Source: Ruegeria sp. Ofav3-42 (GTDB lineage: Bacteria; Pseudomonadota; Alphaproteobacteria; Rhodobacterales; Rhodobacteraceae). From it: a DNA stretch of 64,000 nucleotides. The stretch lies in the NCBI RefSeq assembly GCF_022347725.1, contig NZ_JAKRGB010000012.1, positions 1-64,000 on the forward strand. The letters run 5' to 3'. Positions 8,985-48,453 of the stretch are shown one piece after another. The notes beneath the pieces are model-generated. The model worked only from the letters and a program-made list of their open reading frames with translations. It was not told the origin of the DNA and made no database searches. Numbering within the stretch: the stretch's first letter is position 1; each line of letters begins with the position of its first letter. The position numbers and the translations under genes are program-made.

Positions 8985-9899
8985 TCAGGACCTGGAGAGA
9001 GGCAATCTTGCGCCCGACAGCATGCGGGCCTCAAGAATGGCGGGCCGATATCGGAACAGACGCGCCGGGCGGCCACCGGTACCGCTGGATATTTCACCGG
9101 TCTCTTCAACCAGTTCCTGCTGGTCGATTTGGCGGCGGAAATTGGGTTTGTGCAGGTGCAGGCCGGACAGCGCTTCGACCGTGCGCTGCAGCTGTAGCAG
9201 GGTGAAGCTTTCGGGCATGAGTTCGAACACCACCGGAGAATACTTGATCTTGGCCCGCAAGCGCGAAATGCCGGTGGCAAGGATGCGACGGTTGTCGCCC
9301 GCCATGGGACGGCCAAACTCCGGAGCGTCAACCAGCCCGGCTTCGTACATCAGCTCATAACGCTGCAAAACCAGCTCTTCATTCCAGGTCTTTCCATTCA
9401 GACCGAACAGATAGTCAACACGCTGGACCTTTAGCGGATCACTCCCCGCCCAAGCAGTGAGACGTTCGGTAATGCGTGGCAATTCCTCGGGCGGTCGGTC
9501 GCGATGATCCTCCCATGGAAAATACTGATACCAGCTCCGCCACGCGGGGCGTCCGGCTCCGGCGGCGTCTTGCTCCCGCACCAGCCCGAGGTAACTGATC
9601 GAGATACGCTGTGAGGGGGCGGCATCATCCGAACGCGGATCGCGATCCCTGTCCGCAAAGGTATATAGCTGTTCGAGATAACCCACAGGATGGCCGGTCT
9701 GGGCCTCAATCCAGGCGCGCAGGCTACTCTGAAGGCTGCGATGAGAGGATTCGAAAGGACCCGAGGGTAGCGCCTCGCCGCCGCGTAGGGTCATGACCCG
9801 CGGCTGGTTATCAGTAACGGCGGTCAGGATGGCAATCAGTTCGGCAGGGGCTAGTCCGCTTGGCAAGGAAATTCCTATGTGTTGAATGTCGTTGGACAT
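8985..9899 (-). CDS. nadQ: NadQ/NrtR-like regulator of NAD synthesis
   Basis: A protein of about 304 residues from the ATG at 9897-9899 (a TTG three codons earlier is possible). The N-terminal two thirds look like a Nudix-derived effector domain (a YLEQLYTFADRDRDP segment and ISISYLGLVRE, as in NrtR-type proteins) without a full catalytic Nudix box. The C-terminus (LLQLQRTVEALSGLHLHKPNFRRQI and GGRPARLFRY) matches the winged-helix DNA-binding end of this family. NadQ proteins are known in alphaproteobacteria as regulators linked to nadABC. Position directly upstream of nadA, with twin palindromes between, supports that role. Confidence 0.7.
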   Translation of the reverse strand: MSNDIQHIGISLPSGLAPAELIAILTAVTDNQPRVMTLRGGEALPSGPFESSHRSLQSSLRAWIEAQTGHPVGYLEQLYTFADRDRDPRSDDAAPSQRISISYLGLVREQDAAGAGRPAWRSWYQYFPWEDHRDRPPEELPRITERLTAWAGSDPLKVQRVDYLFGLNGKTWNEELVLQRYELMYEAGLVDAPEFGRPMAGDNRRILATGISRLRAKIKYSPVVFELMPESFTLLQLQRTVEALSGLHLHKPNFRRQIDQQELVEETGEISSGTGGRPARLFRYRPAILEARMLSGARLPLSRS

Positions 9900-39982: not shown

Positions 39983-40100
39983 TTCTATTTTGGTTTCTTG
40001 ATCCGGGCGCTGACGGAAGTCAATCCTTGCGGGGATGTTCACGCCTGTGCAGTAGGGTCGAATACGCCGAAAAACAGGAAGTTGGGGAGTGAGGCAGCCC

Positions 40101-42488
40101 ATGCAGAAAGTTATCATCGTTGGTGGGGGTGCCATTGGCCTTGGGCTGGCCTGCCATCTGGCCGGTCGGGCGCAGGTCACGGTATTGGAGCGCAACCAAC
40201 TGACCAGTGGCACAAGCTGGCATGCGGCTGGGATTGTCGGGCCGCTGCGTGCAACACCAAACATGACCAAACTGGCTATGTATGCAGGTGAGTTGTTTCC
40301 CCGGCTCGAGGATGAATCGGGCCTGTCCACCGGCTACCGCCAGACCGGCGGCTATTGGCTGGCGCGTGATGAAGCGCGCATGGACGAGCTGCACCGCATT
40401 GCCTCTCTGGGCCGCCATTTTGGTTTGACGCCTTCTATTCTCGGACGGGAAGAGGTCGAAATACCGGGTTTGAACCTTGATGGCATCCTTGGCGCGCTGC
40501 GTGTCGAAGAAGATGCCAATGTGAATCCGGTGGACCTGTGCATGGCCTATGCCAAGGTCGCCCGAGCCAAAGGGGCCGAAATTCGAGAGAATGTGCAGGT
40601 TGCCGGGCTGTTGGTTGAAAACGGATCGATCAAGGGTGTGCGTCTGGCAGATGGGTCCGAAATGCTGGCCGACCAAGTGGCGCTGTGTGCCGGTGCGTGG
40701 TCGAAGAAACTGGCGGATGAGGCAGGTGTTGCGCTGCCCCTTCAGGCCGTTGAACATATGTATGTCGTGACCGAGCCTATGGCTGATCTGCCAAGCCCTT
40801 ACCCGGTGCTGCGCGATCTGGATCGCGGTGTTTACGTCAAAGGCGACGCTGGCAAGTTGGTCTTTGGTGGGTTCGAGCCGAATGCCAAGGTCTGGGATGC
40901 GTTTGGGCCAGAAGGCGACCGCCCATTTCTGGAATTGCCTGAAGACTGGGACCAATTCATGCCTTTTATGGAGGCGGCCTTGGCGCTGGTTCCCGGGTTG
41001 GAAACGGCGGGCATTCAGCACTTTATGAACGGTCCCGAGAGTTTTACCGCCGACACAAAACCCCTGATCGGCCAAACACCCAATGTGAACGGGCTGTATG
41101 TAGCAGCCGGGATGAACTCGGTCGGCGTGATGTCTTCGGCAGGTGTCGGCCGGGTGCTGGCCGATTGGATGGTCGATGGTGAGCCGCCGATGGACCTGTG
41201 GGAGGTCGATATCGCCCGTGTCGATCCGCTGACGGCGGGCAAAGACCACATTGAAACCCGGATGAAAGAGGCAGTTAGCGATGCCTTTGCTCTTCACTGG
41301 CCATTCAAACAGCCCAAGGCCGGGCGTGGCCTGCGTAAGTCGGCGTTGCATGATCGCTGGTCTTTGGCGGGTGCGCATTTCGGTCTGACCGCGGGGTGGG
41401 AGCGTGGACTTTGGTATGCGCAGGACGATAGTGAGCGCGATTTGCCCTATTCGGTCGGCGAGCAACCCTGGTATCCGATTGCGCAGCGCGAGGCCGCGCA
41501 GATGCAGGTGGGCGCGGCGTCGATCGATCTGTCACCCTTCGGCAAGTTCGACATACATGGCCCGGATGCGCTGGCGGTGATGCAATATCTGACAACCGCC
41601 AATCTGGATGTGCCCGTTGGTCGTGCGGTCTATACGCTGCTAACGAATGCCAAGGGTGGAATCGAGGCAGATGTGACCATTGCTCGGGTCGCGCAGGGCC
41701 GTTTTCGCATGACCTCAGCCGCCGCGAGCCGGCAAAAGGATTTGGCTTGGTTGCGTCGGCAAAGCGCTGGGCGCGACGTGATGATCACTGACGTAACCGA
41801 GGCCGAAGTGGTCATCGGTGTCATGGGTGGCGGTTCCCGAGATGTGCTCAGATCTTTGTCCGACGCGGATTGGGACGACTTCCCGTTTTCAACCTTTAAG
41901 ACCGTGACGATTGGGGGCAAGACGGCCACAGCCACGCGTGTCAGCTTTGTTGGCGAACTTGGTTGGGAACTGTCCATCGCAGCGGAACAAGGCGGCCCGG
42001 TCTTTGACGCTCTCTACGCCGCCGGGGCCAGACCACTGGGACATTTCGCCGTGGATGGTTGCCGGATCGAAAAAGGGTTCAAACATTGGGGGCACGACCT
42101 AGGCCCCGAGATTACACCGCTTGAGGCCGGGCTTGGCTTTGCCATTGACTGGAGCAAAGATTTTCTGGGCAAGGAAGTTCTGTCCGCCCAGAAAGAACAG
42201 GGCCTGACCCGCAGGCAAGTGATGTTCGACATCCCCTCGCATCCTTTGGTGTTGCATGACGAACCCATTTGGGAAAACGGCCGAGTTATCGGCATGACGA
42301 CCAGCGGCGCGCGCGGTGTGCGCACCGGACTGACGTTGGCGTTGGGCATGATCGAGGTTTCGTCAGGCGAGAAACTGTCGGCCACCTGCGAACGAAAGTT
42401 TGAAATAGAAGTCGCGGGAGTGCGTCATCAGGCCAATGTGCTGATGCGACCCCCGTTTGATCCCAAAGGCGAAAGGATGCGCGGATGA
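40101..42488 (+). CDS. DMGDH-like FAD + GcvT protein (B1)
   Basis: A product of about 795 residues starting at the ATG at 40101 (GAGG at 6 nt; a GTG four codons earlier is possible). The FAD motif IIVGGGAIGLGLA and the SWHAAG flavin-linking motif (H41) open the protein. The GcvT half includes GWERGLWYAQDDSERDLPYS, SFVGELGWELSIA and CRIEKGFKHWGHDLGP. It is predicted to remove N-methyl groups oxidatively, handing formaldehyde-level carbon to tetrahydrofolate. It overlaps the next paralogue by 4 bp. It diverges from the LysR-MttB-aminotransferase group, completing module B. Confidence 0.85.
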   Translation: MQKVIIVGGGAIGLGLACHLAGRAQVTVLERNQLTSGTSWHAAGIVGPLRATPNMTKLAMYAGELFPRLEDESGLSTGYRQTGGYWLARDEARMDELHRIASLGRHFGLTPSILGREEVEIPGLNLDGILGALRVEEDANVNPVDLCMAYAKVARAKGAEIRENVQVAGLLVENGSIKGVRLADGSEMLADQVALCAGAWSKKLADEAGVALPLQAVEHMYVVTEPMADLPSPYPVLRDLDRGVYVKGDAGKLVFGGFEPNAKVWDAFGPEGDRPFLELPEDWDQFMPFMEAALALVPGLETAGIQHFMNGPESFTADTKPLIGQTPNVNGLYVAAGMNSVGVMSSAGVGRVLADWMVDGEPPMDLWEVDIARVDPLTAGKDHIETRMKEAVSDAFALHWPFKQPKAGRGLRKSALHDRWSLAGAHFGLTAGWERGLWYAQDDSERDLPYSVGEQPWYPIAQREAAQMQVGAASIDLSPFGKFDIHGPDALAVMQYLTTANLDVPVGRAVYTLLTNAKGGIEADVTIARVAQGRFRMTSAAASRQKDLAWLRRQSAGRDVMITDVTEAEVVIGVMGGGSRDVLRSLSDADWDDFPFSTFKTVTIGGKTATATRVSFVGELGWELSIAAEQGGPVFDALYAAGARPLGHFAVDGCRIEKGFKHWGHDLGPEITPLEAGLGFAIDWSKDFLGKEVLSAQKEQGLTRRQVMFDIPSHPLVLHDEPIWENGRVIGMTTSGARGVRTGLTLALGMIEVSSGEKLSATCERKFEIEVAGVRHQANVLMRPPFDPKGERMRG

Positions 42489-44899
42489 GCACCACTAACG
42501 CTCAGGTCCTGATCATCGGGGGTGGCGCCATGGGCGTGTCCCTCATGTACCATCTGGTCAAAGCAGGCTGGACCGACGTGGTTCTGACCGAAAAGAACGA
42601 TCTGACCCACGGCTCGACATGGCACGCGGCGGGCCTTTGCACGCATTTCGCCCATAACCCGACTATTCAGGAACTGCGCGCCACATCCGTGCGGCTGTAT
42701 CGCGATATTCTGCCGGAAGAAACTGGTGATACATGTGGTTTTCACCGCTCTGGCGCGATGCGGATTACCTCGAACCCGGACCGGATGGACGAGTTCGCTC
42801 ATGTCGCGGGGCTTAGCCAGTTTACCGGGTACGATTTGCAACTGCTGACACCCGAGGACATCGAACGCTTGCACCCGCTTGCCCGGACCGAAGGGTTGCT
42901 CGGTGGTATTTATGAGCCAGATGACGGCCATGTGGACCCGTCTTTGGCCACCAATGCGATGGCCAAAGTGGCGCGTCAGAACGGTGCCACGATCCTGCGG
43001 TACAATCCGGTGACCTCAATCCGGCGCGAGGGTGACGACTGGATGGTCGAGACGGAAAAGACTACGATCCGTGCCCGGCATATCGTCAATGCCGCAGGCA
43101 CCTGGGGATGGGAAATAGGGCATATGATGGGGCTGAATATTCCGTCTGTGCCGGTGTTGCACCAATATCTGGTGACTGACACAGTTGCTGCAGTTTCCGA
43201 CCGCATCAAACAGGGTTTGCCCGAGCTGCCAATGATCCGCGATCCGGAAGAAAGCTGGTACGTGCGGCAGGAACGCGACGGTCTGATCCTTGGGCCCTAT
43301 GAGAAAGACGCACAACCCTGGTCGATCGACGGCTGCCCGCCCGAATTCGGAGCAGATTTGATGCCGCCCGATCTGGACCGGGTCGAGGACATCATAATGA
43401 TGGCGATGGAGCGTATCCCCGCGCTGGAAACCGGCGGTATCAAATCGGTCGTCAATGGCCCGATCACCTTTACCCCTGACGCCAATCCTCTGATCGGTCC
43501 GGCGCATGGGTTGCCGAATGCCTGGCTGCTGACCGGATCGTCGATGGGCGTGATGGAGGGCGGCGGTTCGGGCTGGTTCCTGGCCTATTGGATGACGCAC
43601 GGCGCGCCGCCGATGGATCCGCTGGCGGTAGACAGCCGCCGTTTCGGTAGCTGGGCCGACCGCGACTATCGTGTCGATAAAGCCATCGAGTGCTTTGGGT
43701 TGCAATTCGGCGTGCATTACCCGCACGAGGAACGCCCCGCCGCTCGAGGCAAGCGCCTGTCGCCTGTGCATGATTTGATGGTCGAACGCGGTGCGGTCAT
43801 GGGAGCGGCCTATGGTTGGGAGCGGCCCAACTGGTTCAGCGACAAGCAGGGCGACGAGGCGGTGCCAAGCTTCCGCCGTTCGAACTGGTTCTTACCGGTT
43901 ACGCGGGAATGCGAGGCCGTGACGAATTCGGTCGGCCTTGCCGACATGTCGGTGTTCTCAAAATTTGAAGTAAAGGGCGTGGATGCCCGCGCATTTGTGG
44001 ACTCCATCGGAACAAATCTGGCACCCAAGGTGGGCCGCATCGGTCTGACGCATGCCCTGACCCCCGCCGGGGGAACGCATTCCGAATTCACTGTCACGGT
44101 TCTGGCCGAAGACGAATTCTATCTAACCTCGGCTGCAGCCGCCGAAGAGATGGACGAGGATCTGTTGCGCGCTCGTGTGGATGGGTTCGACGTGTCCATC
44201 ACGCGTGTGACCGAGAACTACGGCGTGCTGGGCCTTATGGGGCCGAAATCTCGTGATGTCCTGTCCACGCTGACGGATGCTGATCTGGGGGCAGGGTTCC
44301 CTTGGCTCTCGGTTCGCGAGATTACGGTCGCAGGCATTCCCGTGCGCGCGTTGCGTGTGTCCTATGTAGGTGAACTGGGTTGGGAACTGCATGTCGCAGC
44401 CGACCAGATGCGTGCGCTGTTCCTGGCCATTGAAGAAGCCGGGCAGCCCCATGGCCTTGGTTTTTTCGGAGCCTATGCCATGAACGCCATGCGCCTTGAA
44501 AAGGGTTACCGGGCTTGGGGCGCGGACTTTACGACCGAGCGGACGCCAGCTGAGACCGGTGCCGGTTTCCTGATCAAGATGGACCACGACTTCATAGGAA
44601 AAGACGCCCTGGTCGCGCGCCTTAAAGACGATAATCAGTGGGAGATGGTCCTGCTTGAAATTGAAACCGGTGATGTCGATCCGTATTACGCGCATGGCGT
44701 AATCCAAGGGGACCGAATGGTCGGTATTGTCACCTCGGCTGCCTATGGTCACCGTACGGGAAAAACACTGGCGTTGGCCTATCTGCGCGACCGGAGCGCG
44801 AAGGAAGGGCTAGAGGTTCAAATTCTCGGTCAACAACGTGCTGCGAAGATTCTGTCAAAACCTCCGTTTGATCCAGAGAATGCCCGAATGAAAAACTAA
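42485..44899 (+). CDS. DMGDH-like FAD + GcvT protein (B2)
   Basis: An 804-residue paralogue with the FAD motif IIGGGAMGVSLMYHL, the flavin-linking STWHAAG (H47) and a GcvT-like second half (YGWERPNWFSDKQGDEAVPS, SYVGELGWELHVA, MRLEKGYRAWGADFTTE). The last segment (YRAWGxDFTxExTPxEAG type) is close to classic dimethylglycine and sarcosine dehydrogenases. It overlaps B1 by ATGA. The pair A1/A2 and the pair B1/B2 are four diverged copies of one architecture, which suggests sequential or substrate-specific demethylations. Confidence 0.85.
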   Translation: MSTTNAQVLIIGGGAMGVSLMYHLVKAGWTDVVLTEKNDLTHGSTWHAAGLCTHFAHNPTIQELRATSVRLYRDILPEETGDTCGFHRSGAMRITSNPDRMDEFAHVAGLSQFTGYDLQLLTPEDIERLHPLARTEGLLGGIYEPDDGHVDPSLATNAMAKVARQNGATILRYNPVTSIRREGDDWMVETEKTTIRARHIVNAAGTWGWEIGHMMGLNIPSVPVLHQYLVTDTVAAVSDRIKQGLPELPMIRDPEESWYVRQERDGLILGPYEKDAQPWSIDGCPPEFGADLMPPDLDRVEDIIMMAMERIPALETGGIKSVVNGPITFTPDANPLIGPAHGLPNAWLLTGSSMGVMEGGGSGWFLAYWMTHGAPPMDPLAVDSRRFGSWADRDYRVDKAIECFGLQFGVHYPHEERPAARGKRLSPVHDLMVERGAVMGAAYGWERPNWFSDKQGDEAVPSFRRSNWFLPVTRECEAVTNSVGLADMSVFSKFEVKGVDARAFVDSIGTNLAPKVGRIGLTHALTPAGGTHSEFTVTVLAEDEFYLTSAAAAEEMDEDLLRARVDGFDVSITRVTENYGVLGLMGPKSRDVLSTLTDADLGAGFPWLSVREITVAGIPVRALRVSYVGELGWELHVAADQMRALFLAIEEAGQPHGLGFFGAYAMNAMRLEKGYRAWGADFTTERTPAETGAGFLIKMDHDFIGKDALVARLKDDNQWEMVLLEIETGDVDPYYAHGVIQGDRMVGIVTSAAYGHRTGKTLALAYLRDRSAKEGLEVQILGQQRAAKILSKPPFDPENARMKN

Positions 44900-45360
44900 A
44901 ATCTGCATAGGGCTATTCTCGGCAATGCGGAGGAAAAAACCGATGGGGCCCGTTTGTCCACTGTCTTTTGAATGGCGGCCGACGATGCCAAAGCGTGGAA
45001 ATCGGCCAAAGCATGACCCAGATTTTGACTGAGTTGAGCACTAACAGCGAGTCTTCAGGCTCGCGGACCACTGATCGGGCCGGCATTTCCGGACGGGTGA
45101 TTTCTGGCGTGTGTTCAACCGACTTTGGATTTGTAGTTGCGAGGAGCGGGCGGAATTTCACCGGTTCCTTTGCAGTGTTCGACGTGAATCGAAAGAGCAG
45201 AAAACACAACATTACGTGATTTTCATTGGAAAAACATCGACATGACGGGCAACAAAGACGCCAATTTCTTATGTGTGCTTTCCGAAAAAGACGTTAACTA
45301 ACTGCTGGAAAATAATGCGCACTCTTGCCGAATCAAATTGTTTTGTGTTCTGTCGCCGCG
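44900..45360. other. Intergenic, no gene recognised
   Basis: Between the last DMGDH-like gene and the riboswitch two overlapping frames (about 44968-45219 plus, 44913-45212 minus) are open but match nothing I know, and neither has a convincing ribosome binding site. The right part is AT-rich from about 45200 and should contain the promoter for the cobalamin-controlled operon. Confidence 0.4.
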
Positions 45361-45540
45361 ATGGTTCCCGACCGCGTTTTGCGGGAAGGGATAAAAGGGA
45401 ATACGGTGCGGCCTTGTCAAAAGCCAAATCCGTGACTGCCCCCGCAACTGTAGGCGGTGAGCGACCCGAGATCGTCCACTGGGCAATTGCCTGGGAAGGA
45501 TCGGGACAGCTTTGACCCGCAAGTCAGGAGACCTGCCATC
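45361..45540 (+). ncRNA. Cobalamin (AdoCbl) riboswitch
   Basis: The conserved core is clear: AAAAGGGAATACGGTG (about 45403-45418), the B12 box CTGCCCCCGCAACTGTA at 45436-45452, CCACTGG around 45477-45483, CTGGGAAGG around 45491-45499, and the 3' GACCCGCAAGTCAGGAGACC at 45514-45533. The order and spacing match the Rfam-type cobalamin element. A small CTGGG/CCCAG hairpin follows at about 45551, close to the first ribosome binding site, where it could mediate translational repression. It heads two tiny ORFs and a metal ABC transporter operon, which B12 would switch off. Confidence 0.95.
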
Positions 45541-45653
45541 CGAATATTAATGAACCTGGGCGGGGTGTCCCAGAGGGAGATGTCAATGTTTCAAGCGGCC
45601 CACGCCGTCCATAACTTTGCACCCGCTTCGCCCCCGTCCGACCGGAGGAGGCG

Positions 45654-45770
45654 ATGTCTTTGTACTTGCAAAAATCTGATTTCCGACCTTGCAAATCCCA
45701 CAGGGTCAAAGCCGCCTTATCAAAACTTAGCGTTCACAAGTACGCCGTAACCGTCGGGGCCGCCCGATGA
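45654..45770 (+). CDS. Short basic ORF downstream of the riboswitch (38 aa)
   Basis: An ATG at 45654 is preceded by GGAGGAGG at ideal spacing. The 38-residue product starts MSLYLQKSDFRPCKSHRV, is basic and ends at a TGA overlapping the next start by 4 bp. An alternative ORF in another frame (about 45588-45750) also has a GAGGGAG-type site, so which is translated is open. It may be a regulatory leader peptide or an accessory subunit. I know no matching family. Confidence 0.4.
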   Translation: MSLYLQKSDFRPCKSHRVKAALSKLSVHKYAVTVGAAR

Positions 45771-45904
45771 CACGGCGCACGACGCACCACGACACCGGAT
45801 CTCACAGAGGCCGCTGTCTTTCAGAGCTCAGCGTCCTAGTGCTGGTCTCGGGGGCTTTGGCGCTGTCCGCTCTGTTGTGGTTCGCGATTTACACGGTGAT
45901 CTGA
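45767..45904 (+). CDS. Small single-span membrane protein (45 aa)
   Basis: The 45-residue product begins with a His- and Arg-rich cytoplasmic-looking stretch (MTRRTTHHDTGSHRGRC) followed by one hydrophobic span (about residues 22-45, LSVLVLVSGALALSALLWFA). Its ATG overlaps the preceding ORF (ATGA) and its TGA overlaps the ATPase start (TGATG), so it is locked into the transporter operon. The N-terminal histidines could bind metal. It may be a small accessory subunit of the transporter, comparable in concept to CbtB or CbiN, but shows no similarity I can point to. Confidence 0.55.
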   Translation: MTRRTTHHDTGSHRGRCLSELSVLVLVSGALALSALLWFAIYTVI

Positions 45905-46662
45905 TGTCTGCTGTTCTCCAACTCCGCGATCTGAGCCTTGGATACCGCGACCTGACATTGTTCCATCGGTTGTCCATGGATATCGAAGCCGGCACGACTC
46001 TGGCCGTTTTGGGTGCCAACGGTTCGGGTAAAAGCACATTTGTCAAAATGTTGCTTGGACTGATGGACCCGCTTTCGGGCAGTCTCACCTGGCCAAAAGG
46101 CCGCCCCCGTGAAATTGGCTATCTGGCGCAGATGACCGAGTTTGACCGCCGCTTCCCCATTCGCGTTCGGGATCTTGCGGCGATGGGGGCTTGGCGTGGG
46201 TTTGGCTTTCGAAACGGGCTGGACCATGCGGCGCGTGACAGAATGATAGCTGCTCTGGATGAGGCCGGAGTTCTCGACATCGCGGACCGCCCCTTGCACA
46301 TGCTGTCGGGCGGGCAATTGCAGCGCGCGCTGTTCGCAAGGGTCATCATGCAGGATGCGCCGCTGATTTTGTTGGATGAACCCTTTGCGGCCGTGGACCA
46401 AAGCACTGAGGCACATTTGTTGTCGATCATTCGTCGATGGCGCGATGAAGGCCGCGCGGTTGTATTGGTCGTTCACGATCTCTCTTCTGTACTGGACCAT
46501 TGCAGCCATGCCCTGCTTTTGGGCGGGCAAGAAGCAACGCATGGTTCGGTGAACGACGTGCTCACACCCGACCGGCTGGTTGCCCAAGGGTATTTGTCGG
46601 AAAGCCAAGCCTCCTGGATGTTCCGGGGCGGGCCAGCAAATGCGGAGCACACACATGTTTGA
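45904..46662 (+). CDS. Metal ABC transporter ATP-binding protein (candidate cobalt)
   Basis: A 252-residue ATPase of the ZnuC/MntB type. Walker A is GANGSGKST (37-45), the signature LSGGQLQ (134-140), Walker B LILLDEP (154-160) and the switch histidine is in VVLVVHDLSSVL. Subfamily A-1 systems import zinc, manganese or iron; here transcription starts behind a cobalamin riboswitch, which points to cobalt or, less likely, another B12-linked metal. It overlaps the upstream small ORF and, by 8 bp, the permease. Confidence 0.85.
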   Translation: MSAVLQLRDLSLGYRDLTLFHRLSMDIEAGTTLAVLGANGSGKSTFVKMLLGLMDPLSGSLTWPKGRPREIGYLAQMTEFDRRFPIRVRDLAAMGAWRGFGFRNGLDHAARDRMIAALDEAGVLDIADRPLHMLSGGQLQRALFARVIMQDAPLILLDEPFAAVDQSTEAHLLSIIRRWRDEGRAVVLVVHDLSSVLDHCSHALLLGGQEATHGSVNDVLTPDRLVAQGYLSESQASWMFRGGPANAEHTHV

Positions 46663-47557
46663 ACTCCTCAACGAAATGTGGAGCTTTGCTTTCATGCGGC
46701 GCGCCTTCGTGGCAACGACAGTGCTTTCCGCCTCGGTTGCTCCGGTAGGCGCGTTCCTCGTGCTGCGTCGCCTGTCCCTTGCAGGAGAGGCAATGGCCCA
46801 TGCGATCACGCCGGGCATCGTTATCGGGTTTGTGACCGCCGGCCTGTCGGTGATGTCGCTGCTGGTTGGAGGTCTGATTGCGGGTGTGGGCGTTGCCATT
46901 CTGACCGCTTTTCTGGCGCGCAGGACGATATTGCGCAGCGATGCGAGCCTTGCGTCGCTGTATCTGATTGCGTTGGCTGTCGGTATCTTCATCCTGTCGG
47001 CGGCGGGGTCCGCAGTTCCGCTCAAAAGCTTCCTGTTCGGCTCGATCCTCGGGATTGACGATGCCTCGATGATGCTTGTGGGCGGTGTTGCGACTGTGAC
47101 TCTGGTCGCCTTTGCCTTCCTGCTGCGGCCCCTGATCGTCAGCACCTGCGACCCGGTCTTTTTTGAAACCCAGACGCGACGGCCTTGGTTGATCGATCAG
47201 GGTTTCATGCTGCTTTTGGTTCTGAACCTGCTGGCGGCGTTCAAGACATTGGGGACGCTGATGGCCGTTGGCCTGATGATCCTTCCAGCGACGGCGGCGC
47301 GCTATTGGGCGAGTACCATTACGGCGCAGCTGGTGCTGGGATTCATCTTCGCACTGACCAGCTGCTGGATCGGGCTAACGCTATCCTACTTGTTCCCGGA
47401 AACGCCCTCCGGTCCTGCAATTGTGCTGGTCGCGGGTGGCTTCTTTCTGGTCTCGGCCATTTTTGGCCCCTTAGGCTTTGGCGGACGGCTGCGCAAACCG
47501 TCCGTTTCAAAAGACATCCCCGTTGCGCAAGTCCATCAAGAAGAGCGAGCAAAATGA
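46655..47557 (+). CDS. Metal ABC transporter permease (ZnuB/MntC family)
   Basis: A 300-residue membrane protein with eight or nine hydrophobic segments, starting MFELLNEMWSFAFMRRAF. The family segments RRLSLAGEAMAHAITPGIVIGF and MAVGLMILPATAARYW are diagnostic of the ABC-3 permease family. The start overlaps the ATPase stop and the stop overlaps the binding-protein start (ATGA), so all subunits are coupled. It forms the channel of the B12-regulated importer. Confidence 0.9.
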   Translation: MFELLNEMWSFAFMRRAFVATTVLSASVAPVGAFLVLRRLSLAGEAMAHAITPGIVIGFVTAGLSVMSLLVGGLIAGVGVAILTAFLARRTILRSDASLASLYLIALAVGIFILSAAGSAVPLKSFLFGSILGIDDASMMLVGGVATVTLVAFAFLLRPLIVSTCDPVFFETQTRRPWLIDQGFMLLLVLNLLAAFKTLGTLMAVGLMILPATAARYWASTITAQLVLGFIFALTSCWIGLTLSYLFPETPSGPAIVLVAGGFFLVSAIFGPLGFGGRLRKPSVSKDIPVAQVHQEERAK

Positions 47558-48453
47558 CTCTTGTGAAATCCCTCTATGCCGGCATCGCCTCGGCGTCCTT
47601 TGCTCTGGTCGCACTGCCGGCTGCAGCTGCTGAAGACGTCGTCCAGATCGTGGCAAGCTTCTCGATCCTCGGTGATATGGTCGGAGAAGTTGTCGGCGAT
47701 CTGGCAACCGTTACAACCATCGTTGGCCCTGACGCTGACGCGCATGTCTATCAGCCTTCGGTTGCCGACGCGAAGGCTGTGGCCAACGCCGACATCATCT
47801 TTGTCAATGGTTTGGGTTTTGAAACATGGTCCGACACCCTGATTTCGGAGTCCGGAACCGAAGCGTCTGTACACGTTGCCACCGACGGCATCACGCCGGT
47901 TAAAGTGGATGGCGAGACCGACCCCCACGCATGGAACTCTCTGTCAAACGGTGTGATTTACGTGACCAACGTCGCAGACGTGATGAAAGAAGCCATGCCC
48001 GAGCACGCAGACGAGATCGCTGCCAATGCCGCAGCCTATATCGCTGAGCTTGAGGCGCTGGATGCCGAAACCAAAGCCAAGCTGGCAGACCTGCCCGCGA
48101 ACCGCCGCACGGTTGTGACGGCTCATGACGCGTTCGGCTATCTTGCGGATGCTTATGGTCTGACCTTCTTAGCGCCGGTCGGAATCGACACAGAGGCAGA
48201 GCCTTCTGCCAAGGAGCTTGCCGTTCTGATCGATCAGTTGAAGGCCGATGGTGCCGCTGCTCTGTTCGTGGAAAACATCACTAGCCCCGCTTTGGTTCAG
48301 CAAATTTCGGACGAGACGGGTATCGTGATCGGCGGTCGCCTATTCTCTGACGCGCTGTCCGAGCGTGGCGGCCCGGCCACCAGCTATCTTGCAATGTTCC
48401 AGCACAACCTGGGCACGTTGCTTAACGCGCTGGCAAACGAGACCGCGAGCTAA
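47554..48453 (+). CDS. Metal ABC transporter substrate-binding protein (A-1 cluster)
   Basis: A 299-residue protein with a Sec signal peptide (cleavage near residue 26, PAAAAED). Cluster A-1 metal ligands can be placed at H64 (DADAHVYQPS), H125 (ETDPHAW) and H191 (TAHDAFGYL), with a C-terminal acidic ligand expected in the GRLFSDALSERGGP segment. The His/Asp-rich loop typical of zinc-specific ZnuA proteins is missing, which is compatible with another metal. Together with B12 control this supports cobalt, although the ligand set alone cannot settle the metal. Confidence 0.9.
   Translation: MTLVKSLYAGIASASFALVALPAAAAEDVVQIVASFSILGDMVGEVVGDLATVTTIVGPDADAHVYQPSVADAKAVANADIIFVNGLGFETWSDTLISESGTEASVHVATDGITPVKVDGETDPHAWNSLSNGVIYVTNVADVMKEAMPEHADEIAANAAAYIAELEALDAETKAKLADLPANRRTVVTAHDAFGYLADAYGLTFLAPVGIDTEAEPSAKELAVLIDQLKADGAAALFVENITSPALVQQISDETGIVIGGRLFSDALSERGGPATSYLAMFQHNLGTLLNALANETAS

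Follow-up and report, generated by a model that had tools for sequence, protein, structure and literature searches.

A cobalamin riboswitch precedes an AztABC-type transporter operon, a probable cobalt importer, in Ruegeria and its relatives

A metal ABC transporter operon behind a cobalamin riboswitch

The first 64,000 nucleotides of contig NZ_JAKRGB010000012.1 of Ruegeria sp. Ofav3-42 (hereafter the window) carry an operon for a metal ABC transporter that is preceded by a cobalamin (B12) riboswitch. The aptamer is complete (45345-45554, plus strand). It matches Rfam RF00174 over the whole model (1-189 of 189) with 122.9 bits (E 2.4e-30), the gathering score being 31.5 bits, and is the sole Rfam match at the gathering threshold within the window. 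Four overlapping genes follow on the same strand, with overlaps of 1, 8 and 4 bases. They encode an unannotated small single-helix membrane protein of 45 aa (45767-45904), the last base of whose stop codon is the first base of the next start; an AztA-like ATPase (45904-46662; Pfam ABC_tran 92.7 bits, NCBIfam AztA 191 bits, cut-off 220); an AztB-like permease of the ABC-3 family (46655-47557; Pfam ABC-3 156 bits, AztB 206, cut-off 280); and an AztC-like periplasmic metal-binding protein of the ZnuA family, cluster A-I (47554-48453; Pfam ZnuA 274.4 bits, AztC 277, cut-off 350), whose start, judged by eye, resembles a signal peptide. The Rfam and Pfam matches agree with a first-pass annotation of this DNA, which had named a complete riboswitch and a cluster A-1 metal system behind it, missing the 45-aa open reading frame (ORF) at the head of the operon. 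We consider it highly probable, judging from sequence, that the operon is a B12-repressed cobalt importer built from a zinc-family, AztABC-type transporter.

Conservation of the riboswitch among close orthologs

Relatives were collected by a scan of one genome per species, from which the best 80 of 88 were kept, and by a scan of 295 genomes of the family, which added four more at 71-76% identity, one of them on a contig already sampled. Orthologs with at least 66% identity form the core set and come from Ruegeria, Shimia, Tritonibacter, Roseibium/Labrenzia, Amylibacter, Filomicrobium, Cohaesibacter and others. One locus, L094, shares its contig with L045; it is left out of locus counts and retained among 56 alignment rows and 52 leaders. 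Three loci at contig ends (L093, L101 and L137) are excluded from riboswitch counts. The first-pass annotation had proposed comparing operons that carry the same riboswitch, and this comparison is informative: a B12 box lies at a similar distance 5' of the ATPase gene in 51 of the 53 distinct core loci, window included, and Rfam confirmed a cobalamin riboswitch in 17 of 19 core loci tested. Among outgroup loci we find no B12 box with up to one mismatch (0/39) and no Rfam cobalamin riboswitch (0/10 tested, at 43-57% identity).

In a tree of 93 binding proteins, made by a quick method with SH-aLRT support only and with long-branch warnings, a branch with 100% support sets the 55 core rows apart from all others, and L048 and L096, the members that lack a riboswitch, fall at separate places inside this core clade. 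The flanking genes are not conserved: with antisense artefacts and the ABC genes themselves set aside, every gene cluster is limited to 8 loci or fewer, and among the fetched loci no conserved gene lies downstream of the operon. None of 72,556 plasmid records holds a protein that is at least 60% identical to the binding protein. In three loci of Roseibium/Labrenzia type (L084, L087 and L107) a second B12 box, recognised by pattern only, is seen near position 9170, 5' of a gene for a 973-aa MrpA-like antiporter (named by eye).

Near-exclusion with CbtA and CbiM, and co-occurrence with CobN

The distribution of the transporter was examined in 54 genomes of the genus Ruegeria. The ABC is present in 14 of these congeners, CbtA in 22 and CbiM in 21, with 12 strong CbiM matches and 9 weak ones only. 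CbtA or any CbiM is found in 3 of the 14 congeners that carry the ABC, whereas 38 of the 40 that lack it have one or the other (p=2.6e-7, species being treated as independent); when only strong CbiM matches are counted the numbers are 1/14 and 32/40 (p=2.1e-6). The other importers sit in the same regulatory slot. A B12 riboswitch lies on the same strand, at most 1 kb upstream, in 7/7 strong CbiM loci and in 5/5 CbtA loci, the latter from four genomes, one outside the genus. For the weak, solitary CbiM-like protein this is the case in 7 of 8 loci; the eighth, in an ABC carrier, has none within the fetched stretch. This weak CbiM-like membrane protein (L159-L165; about 225 aa, 45-56 bits to CbiM), seen behind a B12 riboswitch in several congeners, has no CbiN, Q or O adjoining it in five contexts viewed by eye.

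In a set of 80 genomes CobN (PF02514) accompanies the ABC in 53 of 55 carriers and is found in 19 of 25 genomes without it, the carriers lacking a match being the riboswitch-less L096 and L090. Within CobN-positive genomes the opposition between importers persists, CbtA or CbiM occurring in 11 of 53 ABC carriers as against 15 of 19 others (p=1.1e-5), and all seven CbiM matches in ABC carriers of this set are weak (47-64 bits). The window genome itself has CobN, and neither CbtA nor CbiM was found in it. The ABC thus occurs with B12 synthesis, as marked by CobN, and stands in for other cobalt importers. NicO was tried as a further distribution marker and set aside as too mixed, with matches in both groups, many of them weak.

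Zinc and manganese systems around the orthologs

Elsewhere in the window genome there is a ZnuA (Pfam) whose His-rich loop is very long; its neighbours are Fur-, ZnuC- and ZnuB-like genes. A further, separate system, of sit/tro type, has two permeases. These neighbours and the sit/tro-type system were named by eye. COG0523, WD40, HisI, Fur-family and FolE2 genes mark zinc regulons (PMC2770081). No homologue of COG0523, WD40, hisI, Fur or folE2 is present in the fetched flanks of 50 riboswitch-bearing loci (window not included); for Fur this concerns the gene, Zur boxes themselves not having been searched. COG0523 and WD40 genes adjoin both riboswitch-less orthologs, L048 and L096. The island around L096, which is a metagenome-assembled genome (MAG) and shows no CobN, comprises HisI, Fur, two COG0523 and WD40 genes, with CysRS- and ThrRS-like neighbours (by eye); the genome of L048 has CobN and a weak CbiM. 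Among 35 outgroup loci COG0523 is found in 13, FolE2 in 9, HisI in 8, the Fur family in 5 and WD40 in 3. MetE scores above its cut-off in none of the 54 congeners, which give only nine short weak matches of 19-26 bits.

Genes for the class Ib ribonucleotide reductase, nrdIEF, lie behind a B12 riboswitch or box in L061, L074 and L180 (named by eye, with mutual tblastn matches). Congener G372, which lacks the ABC, has such a riboswitch-nrdIEF arrangement, and carries a weak riboswitch fragment (42.6 bits, L187:5249, minus strand) 5' of cytochrome bd oxidase-like genes (by eye).

Binding site and comparison with known transporters

The predicted metal ligands of the binding protein are conserved across the aligned core rows, where binding-protein translations outside 240-480 aa were dropped: H64 in 56/56, H125 in 55/56, H191 in 56/56 and D266 in 55/56, the last being Glu in L096 and unchanged in L048. 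The three histidines noted in the first-pass annotation are present, together with an aspartate. The loop before H125 is exactly 18 residues long in all 56 rows and holds no extra His, in line with the earlier statement that a zinc-type His-rich loop is absent. Five outgroup members with a Fur-family homologue have loops of 19-89 residues with 1-20 His. The loop, which had been put forward as a sign of cobalt, loses that meaning when further relatives are considered: FolE2-linked Pseudomonas relatives have short loops too (22 residues, 1-2 His) and Pectobacterium relatives likewise lack the loop. Because such zinc-type relatives share the short loop, its loss cannot separate cobalt from zinc.

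Two further positions set the core clade apart. Position 190 of the binding protein, beside a ligand, is Ala in 56/56 core rows and Ser in 30 of 38 outgroup rows, and position 125 of the permease is His in 34 of 35 outgroup rows and Ser in the clade, including both riboswitch-less members, so that this residue does not track the regulator. As both changes also occur in L096 or L048, they do not prove specificity. There is no binding-protein position at which both riboswitch-less rows differ from the remaining rows. The set H,H,H,D would fit zinc, cobalt and some manganese or iron proteins alike.

The closest known system is AztABCD, the zinc transporter of Paracoccus denitrificans, which has the same gene order, ATPase-permease-binding protein; AztA, AztB and AztC are the best NCBIfam matches of the window proteins. 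The best solved relatives of the binding protein are 5kzj (E 5e-73), which we take to be AztC, and 8svc. The ligand type H,H,H,D is common to the window protein and AztC, whose ligands include His138 and His204 (PMC7463823). Unlike AztABCD, the window system lies under all three equivalog cut-offs, has no His-bearing loop in its binding protein and has a B12 riboswitch; its riboswitch-bearing relatives lack a nearby Fur-family, COG0523 or WD40 homologue and share no downstream gene. Three other core members score 285, 253 and 291 bits against the AztC cut-off of 350; of the outgroup, L050 meets it with 350.4, and L056 (342), L108 (281) and L112 (263) fall below.

CbtAB and CbiMNQO, the B12-riboswitch-controlled cobalt importers, share the riboswitch slot and complement the ABC in distribution among congeners, but their proteins are unrelated to it and include no cluster A-I binding protein. 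ZnuABC/Zur belongs to the same superfamily and is separately present in the window genome, with the long loop and the adjoining Fur-like gene that the riboswitch operon lacks. The manganese importers SitABCD and PsaABC, also of this superfamily, likewise have no flexible loop. PsaA/SitA-type manganese proteins use H,H,E,D, with Glu in third place, whereas the third ligand of the window protein is His in 56/56 rows; group III of cluster A-I holds 3His/1Asp proteins as well. The sit/tro-type system of the window genome differs further in having two permeases where the riboswitch ABC has one.

A leader hairpin and a small membrane protein

Directly 3' of the aptamer lies a hairpin, CTGGG-CGGGGTGT-CCCAG (45556-45573, plus strand), which is probably the regulatory stem P13, and the Shine-Dalgarno-like GAGGGAG comes after it. 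The P13 core motif is found in 49 of 52 leaders (the duplicate row included), being absent from L047, L075 and L076, and in 42 of these 49 a Shine-Dalgarno-like motif follows. Its pairing covaries: 238 of 245 cells are paired, against a mean of 211.5 and a maximum of 223 in 2000 shuffles, in a test where the search motif itself largely sets the inner two pairs, variation sits in pairs 1-3, and kinship among leaders is not controlled for. A possible leader reading frame of 54 aa (45586-45750, plus strand) begins just 3' of the Shine-Dalgarno-like site, and its start, ATGTTY, is seen at the matching place in 23 of 52 leaders.

A terminator-type expression platform was dropped in favour of this hairpin. 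A hairpin-plus-T search found no conserved terminator across the leaders, a simple scan gave 8 terminator-like sites against 4.9 expected, with none in the plus-strand stretch that separates the aptamer from the small gene, and shuffled sequences fold as well as the leader (z -0.64). By way of the P13 hairpin B12 would repress translation.

The small gene at the head of the operon is constant in the core set: an ORF ending in one helix precedes the ATPase gene in all 52 orthologous loci that have the ATPase (window not counted), 49 found by pattern and three (L061, L071 and L086) by eye, and in 36 of the 49 the two genes overlap by one base, which ends the stop of the first and begins the ATPase start. 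Over 15 sequences (105 pairs) the differences at codon positions 1, 2 and 3 are 0.27, 0.19 and 0.55, and single-base codon changes are synonymous in 1067 cases and nonsynonymous in 230. This codon-position pattern and the synonymous excess show that the ORF encodes a real protein. It begins with a hydrophilic head that varies between loci, carries a CLTE(L/M)S-like motif and has a single helix; the window's copy matches no Pfam or NCBIfam model at E values up to 1. By the same loose pattern, 20 of the 35 outgroup loci have a similar small helix protein 5' of the ATPase gene; Azt-type relatives in which it is seen are L054-L057, L136 and loci of Pectobacterium and Brenneria. We think it probable that the protein belongs to the permease as a stable accessory subunit.

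Which metal does the operon import?

Given the conserved B12 riboswitch and the near-exclusion with CbtA and CbiM, cobalt is the favoured cargo, and the absence of zinc-regulon partners lends further support to cobalt transport under B12 control as first annotated. In related species the ABC most likely takes the place of the usual cobalt importers and supplies cobalt for B12 synthesis. When coenzyme B12 is plentiful it would bind the leader RNA, the hairpin after the aptamer would cover the ribosome-binding site and expression would drop; when B12 is short the operon would be expressed. The binding protein would then catch periplasmic Co2+ with His64, His125, His191 and Asp266 and pass it to the permease, and the ATPase would power its entry for CobN and de novo B12 synthesis.

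Several observations weigh against this interpretation. Three ABC-bearing congeners also have CbtA (one) or a weak CbiM (two), and two congeners, G372 and G395, carry none of ABC, CbtA and CbiM; the distribution tests are not phylogeny-corrected, and the importers sought were CbtA, CbiM and NicO. L090, a MAG contig that bears the riboswitch, shows no CobN. In the window genome a DUF1007-like and NicO pair without riboswitch, and a HupE-like protein (named by eye), might carry cobalt. The ligand set is also that of zinc AztC, the short loop is shared with the FolE2-linked Pseudomonas proteins, and according to PMC7731109 manganese or iron is the usual metal of those cluster A-I proteins of group III that have 3His/1Asp and lack a loop. 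L096, whose binding protein is 72-74% identical, lies in a zinc island, and manganese fits the nrdIEF operon, riboswitch-controlled and divergent, that adjoins the ABC in L061 and L074.

These points feed three other explanations. The ABC could still import zinc, being made at low B12 to supply zinc enzymes that replace B12 enzymes, MetE foremost. Its nearest characterised relatives, its ligands and the setting of L096 all speak for zinc, yet no congener has MetE above cut-off, a ZnuABC-like locus with an adjoining Fur-like gene is already present in the window genome, zinc-regulon genes are near 0/50 riboswitch-bearing loci, the exceptions without riboswitch are precisely those with zinc partners, and we know of no zinc explanation for the near-exclusion with CbtA and CbiM; we regard zinc as improbable. 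Manganese import for class Ib NrdIEF, in replacement of a B12-dependent class II enzyme at low B12, appears to us more improbable still. The divergent nrdI-nrdE-nrdF operons are the best argument for it, beside the usual metals of group III proteins, but nrd matches occur in just these two of 95 loci searched (loci, not whole genomes), the window genome's six riboswitches all stand before genes that do not look like nrd (by eye), riboswitch-nrdIEF is also found in the ABC-less G372, and the third ligand is His and not the Glu of PsaA.

A broad importer of cobalt, zinc and manganese, used for cobalt at low B12 with no dedicated specificity, overlaps the cobalt interpretation, and we hold it unlikely, though less so than zinc or manganese alone. 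Cobalt ranks next after zinc in stabilising the ZnuA of P. aeruginosa (PMC4542158); the ligands are the same as in zinc relatives, and the closely similar L096 protein serves zinc by context. The clade-wide changes at position 190 and permease position 125 count against it, although both also occur in L096 or L048.

Both riboswitch-less orthologs adjoin zinc-regulon genes, so the transporter module may change its metal along with its regulator. It is conceivable, and we put it forward tentatively, that one Azt-type ABC, together with its small subunit, imports zinc in Zur islands and is a dedicated cobalt importer behind a B12 riboswitch, that L096 and L048 are two separate returns to zinc within the riboswitch clade, and that Azt-type systems in general have the small protein as a new subunit. 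The riboswitch-bearing and zinc-island versions, more than 70% identical, make a natural pair for finding what determines cobalt or zinc.

PMC7731109 gives zinc, manganese or iron as the cargo of cluster A-I importers, and in the literature searched we found no description of a B12-controlled one. A Roseobacter genome survey reports a cbiMQ, cbtAB or corA cobalt system in 76% (PMC4771312). Predicted cobalt transporters CbtC-CbtG and CbtX appear by name only in the literature searched, and a riboswitch survey with 15 Rhodobacterales genomes among those covered counts 12 cobalt-transport orthologs overall, so that an earlier listing of this ABC as a cobalt transporter is possible. If cobalt is the cargo, a set of alphaproteobacterial transporters called zinc or manganese systems from sequence alone would be misnamed, and the operon would fill a gap left by the known cobalt systems in Roseobacter genomes.

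Neighbouring genes and other riboswitches of the genome

The operon had been placed immediately after an MttB-containing cluster, as a hint of a functional tie to demethylation. Two FAD/folate demethylase-like genes (40089-44899, plus strand) do lie just upstream, but the MttB gene itself lies on the minus strand at a distance of 6 kb (37356 to about 38888; Pfam 668 bits). The proposed link finds no support in the neighbourhood, which is not shared across the 95 fetched loci, core and outgroup: their flanks hold an MttB homologue in one (L066, 40% identity) and a 27% partial match to the first demethylase gene in another (L076). Looking for B12-binding proteins in the window with a crude motif gave none.

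Other riboswitches of the window genome precede different genes. A Cys-containing protein of 134-145 aa, with no Pfam match for the two copies scanned, follows a B12 riboswitch in this genome (L009:6246-6647, minus strand) and in two congeners (L183 and L185). Another riboswitch (L008:9919-10122, minus strand; G000:C52:101918-102121) is followed by genes for a Rieske oxygenase and for a ferredoxin reductase. Upstream lies a LysR-type gene and, farther out on the opposite strand, an MttB-like gene, both named by eye. The oxygenase and reductase may provide a way of demethylating without B12 that is turned on under corrinoid shortage. A like Rieske/reductase pair stands behind a riboswitch in G372 (L184; by eye).

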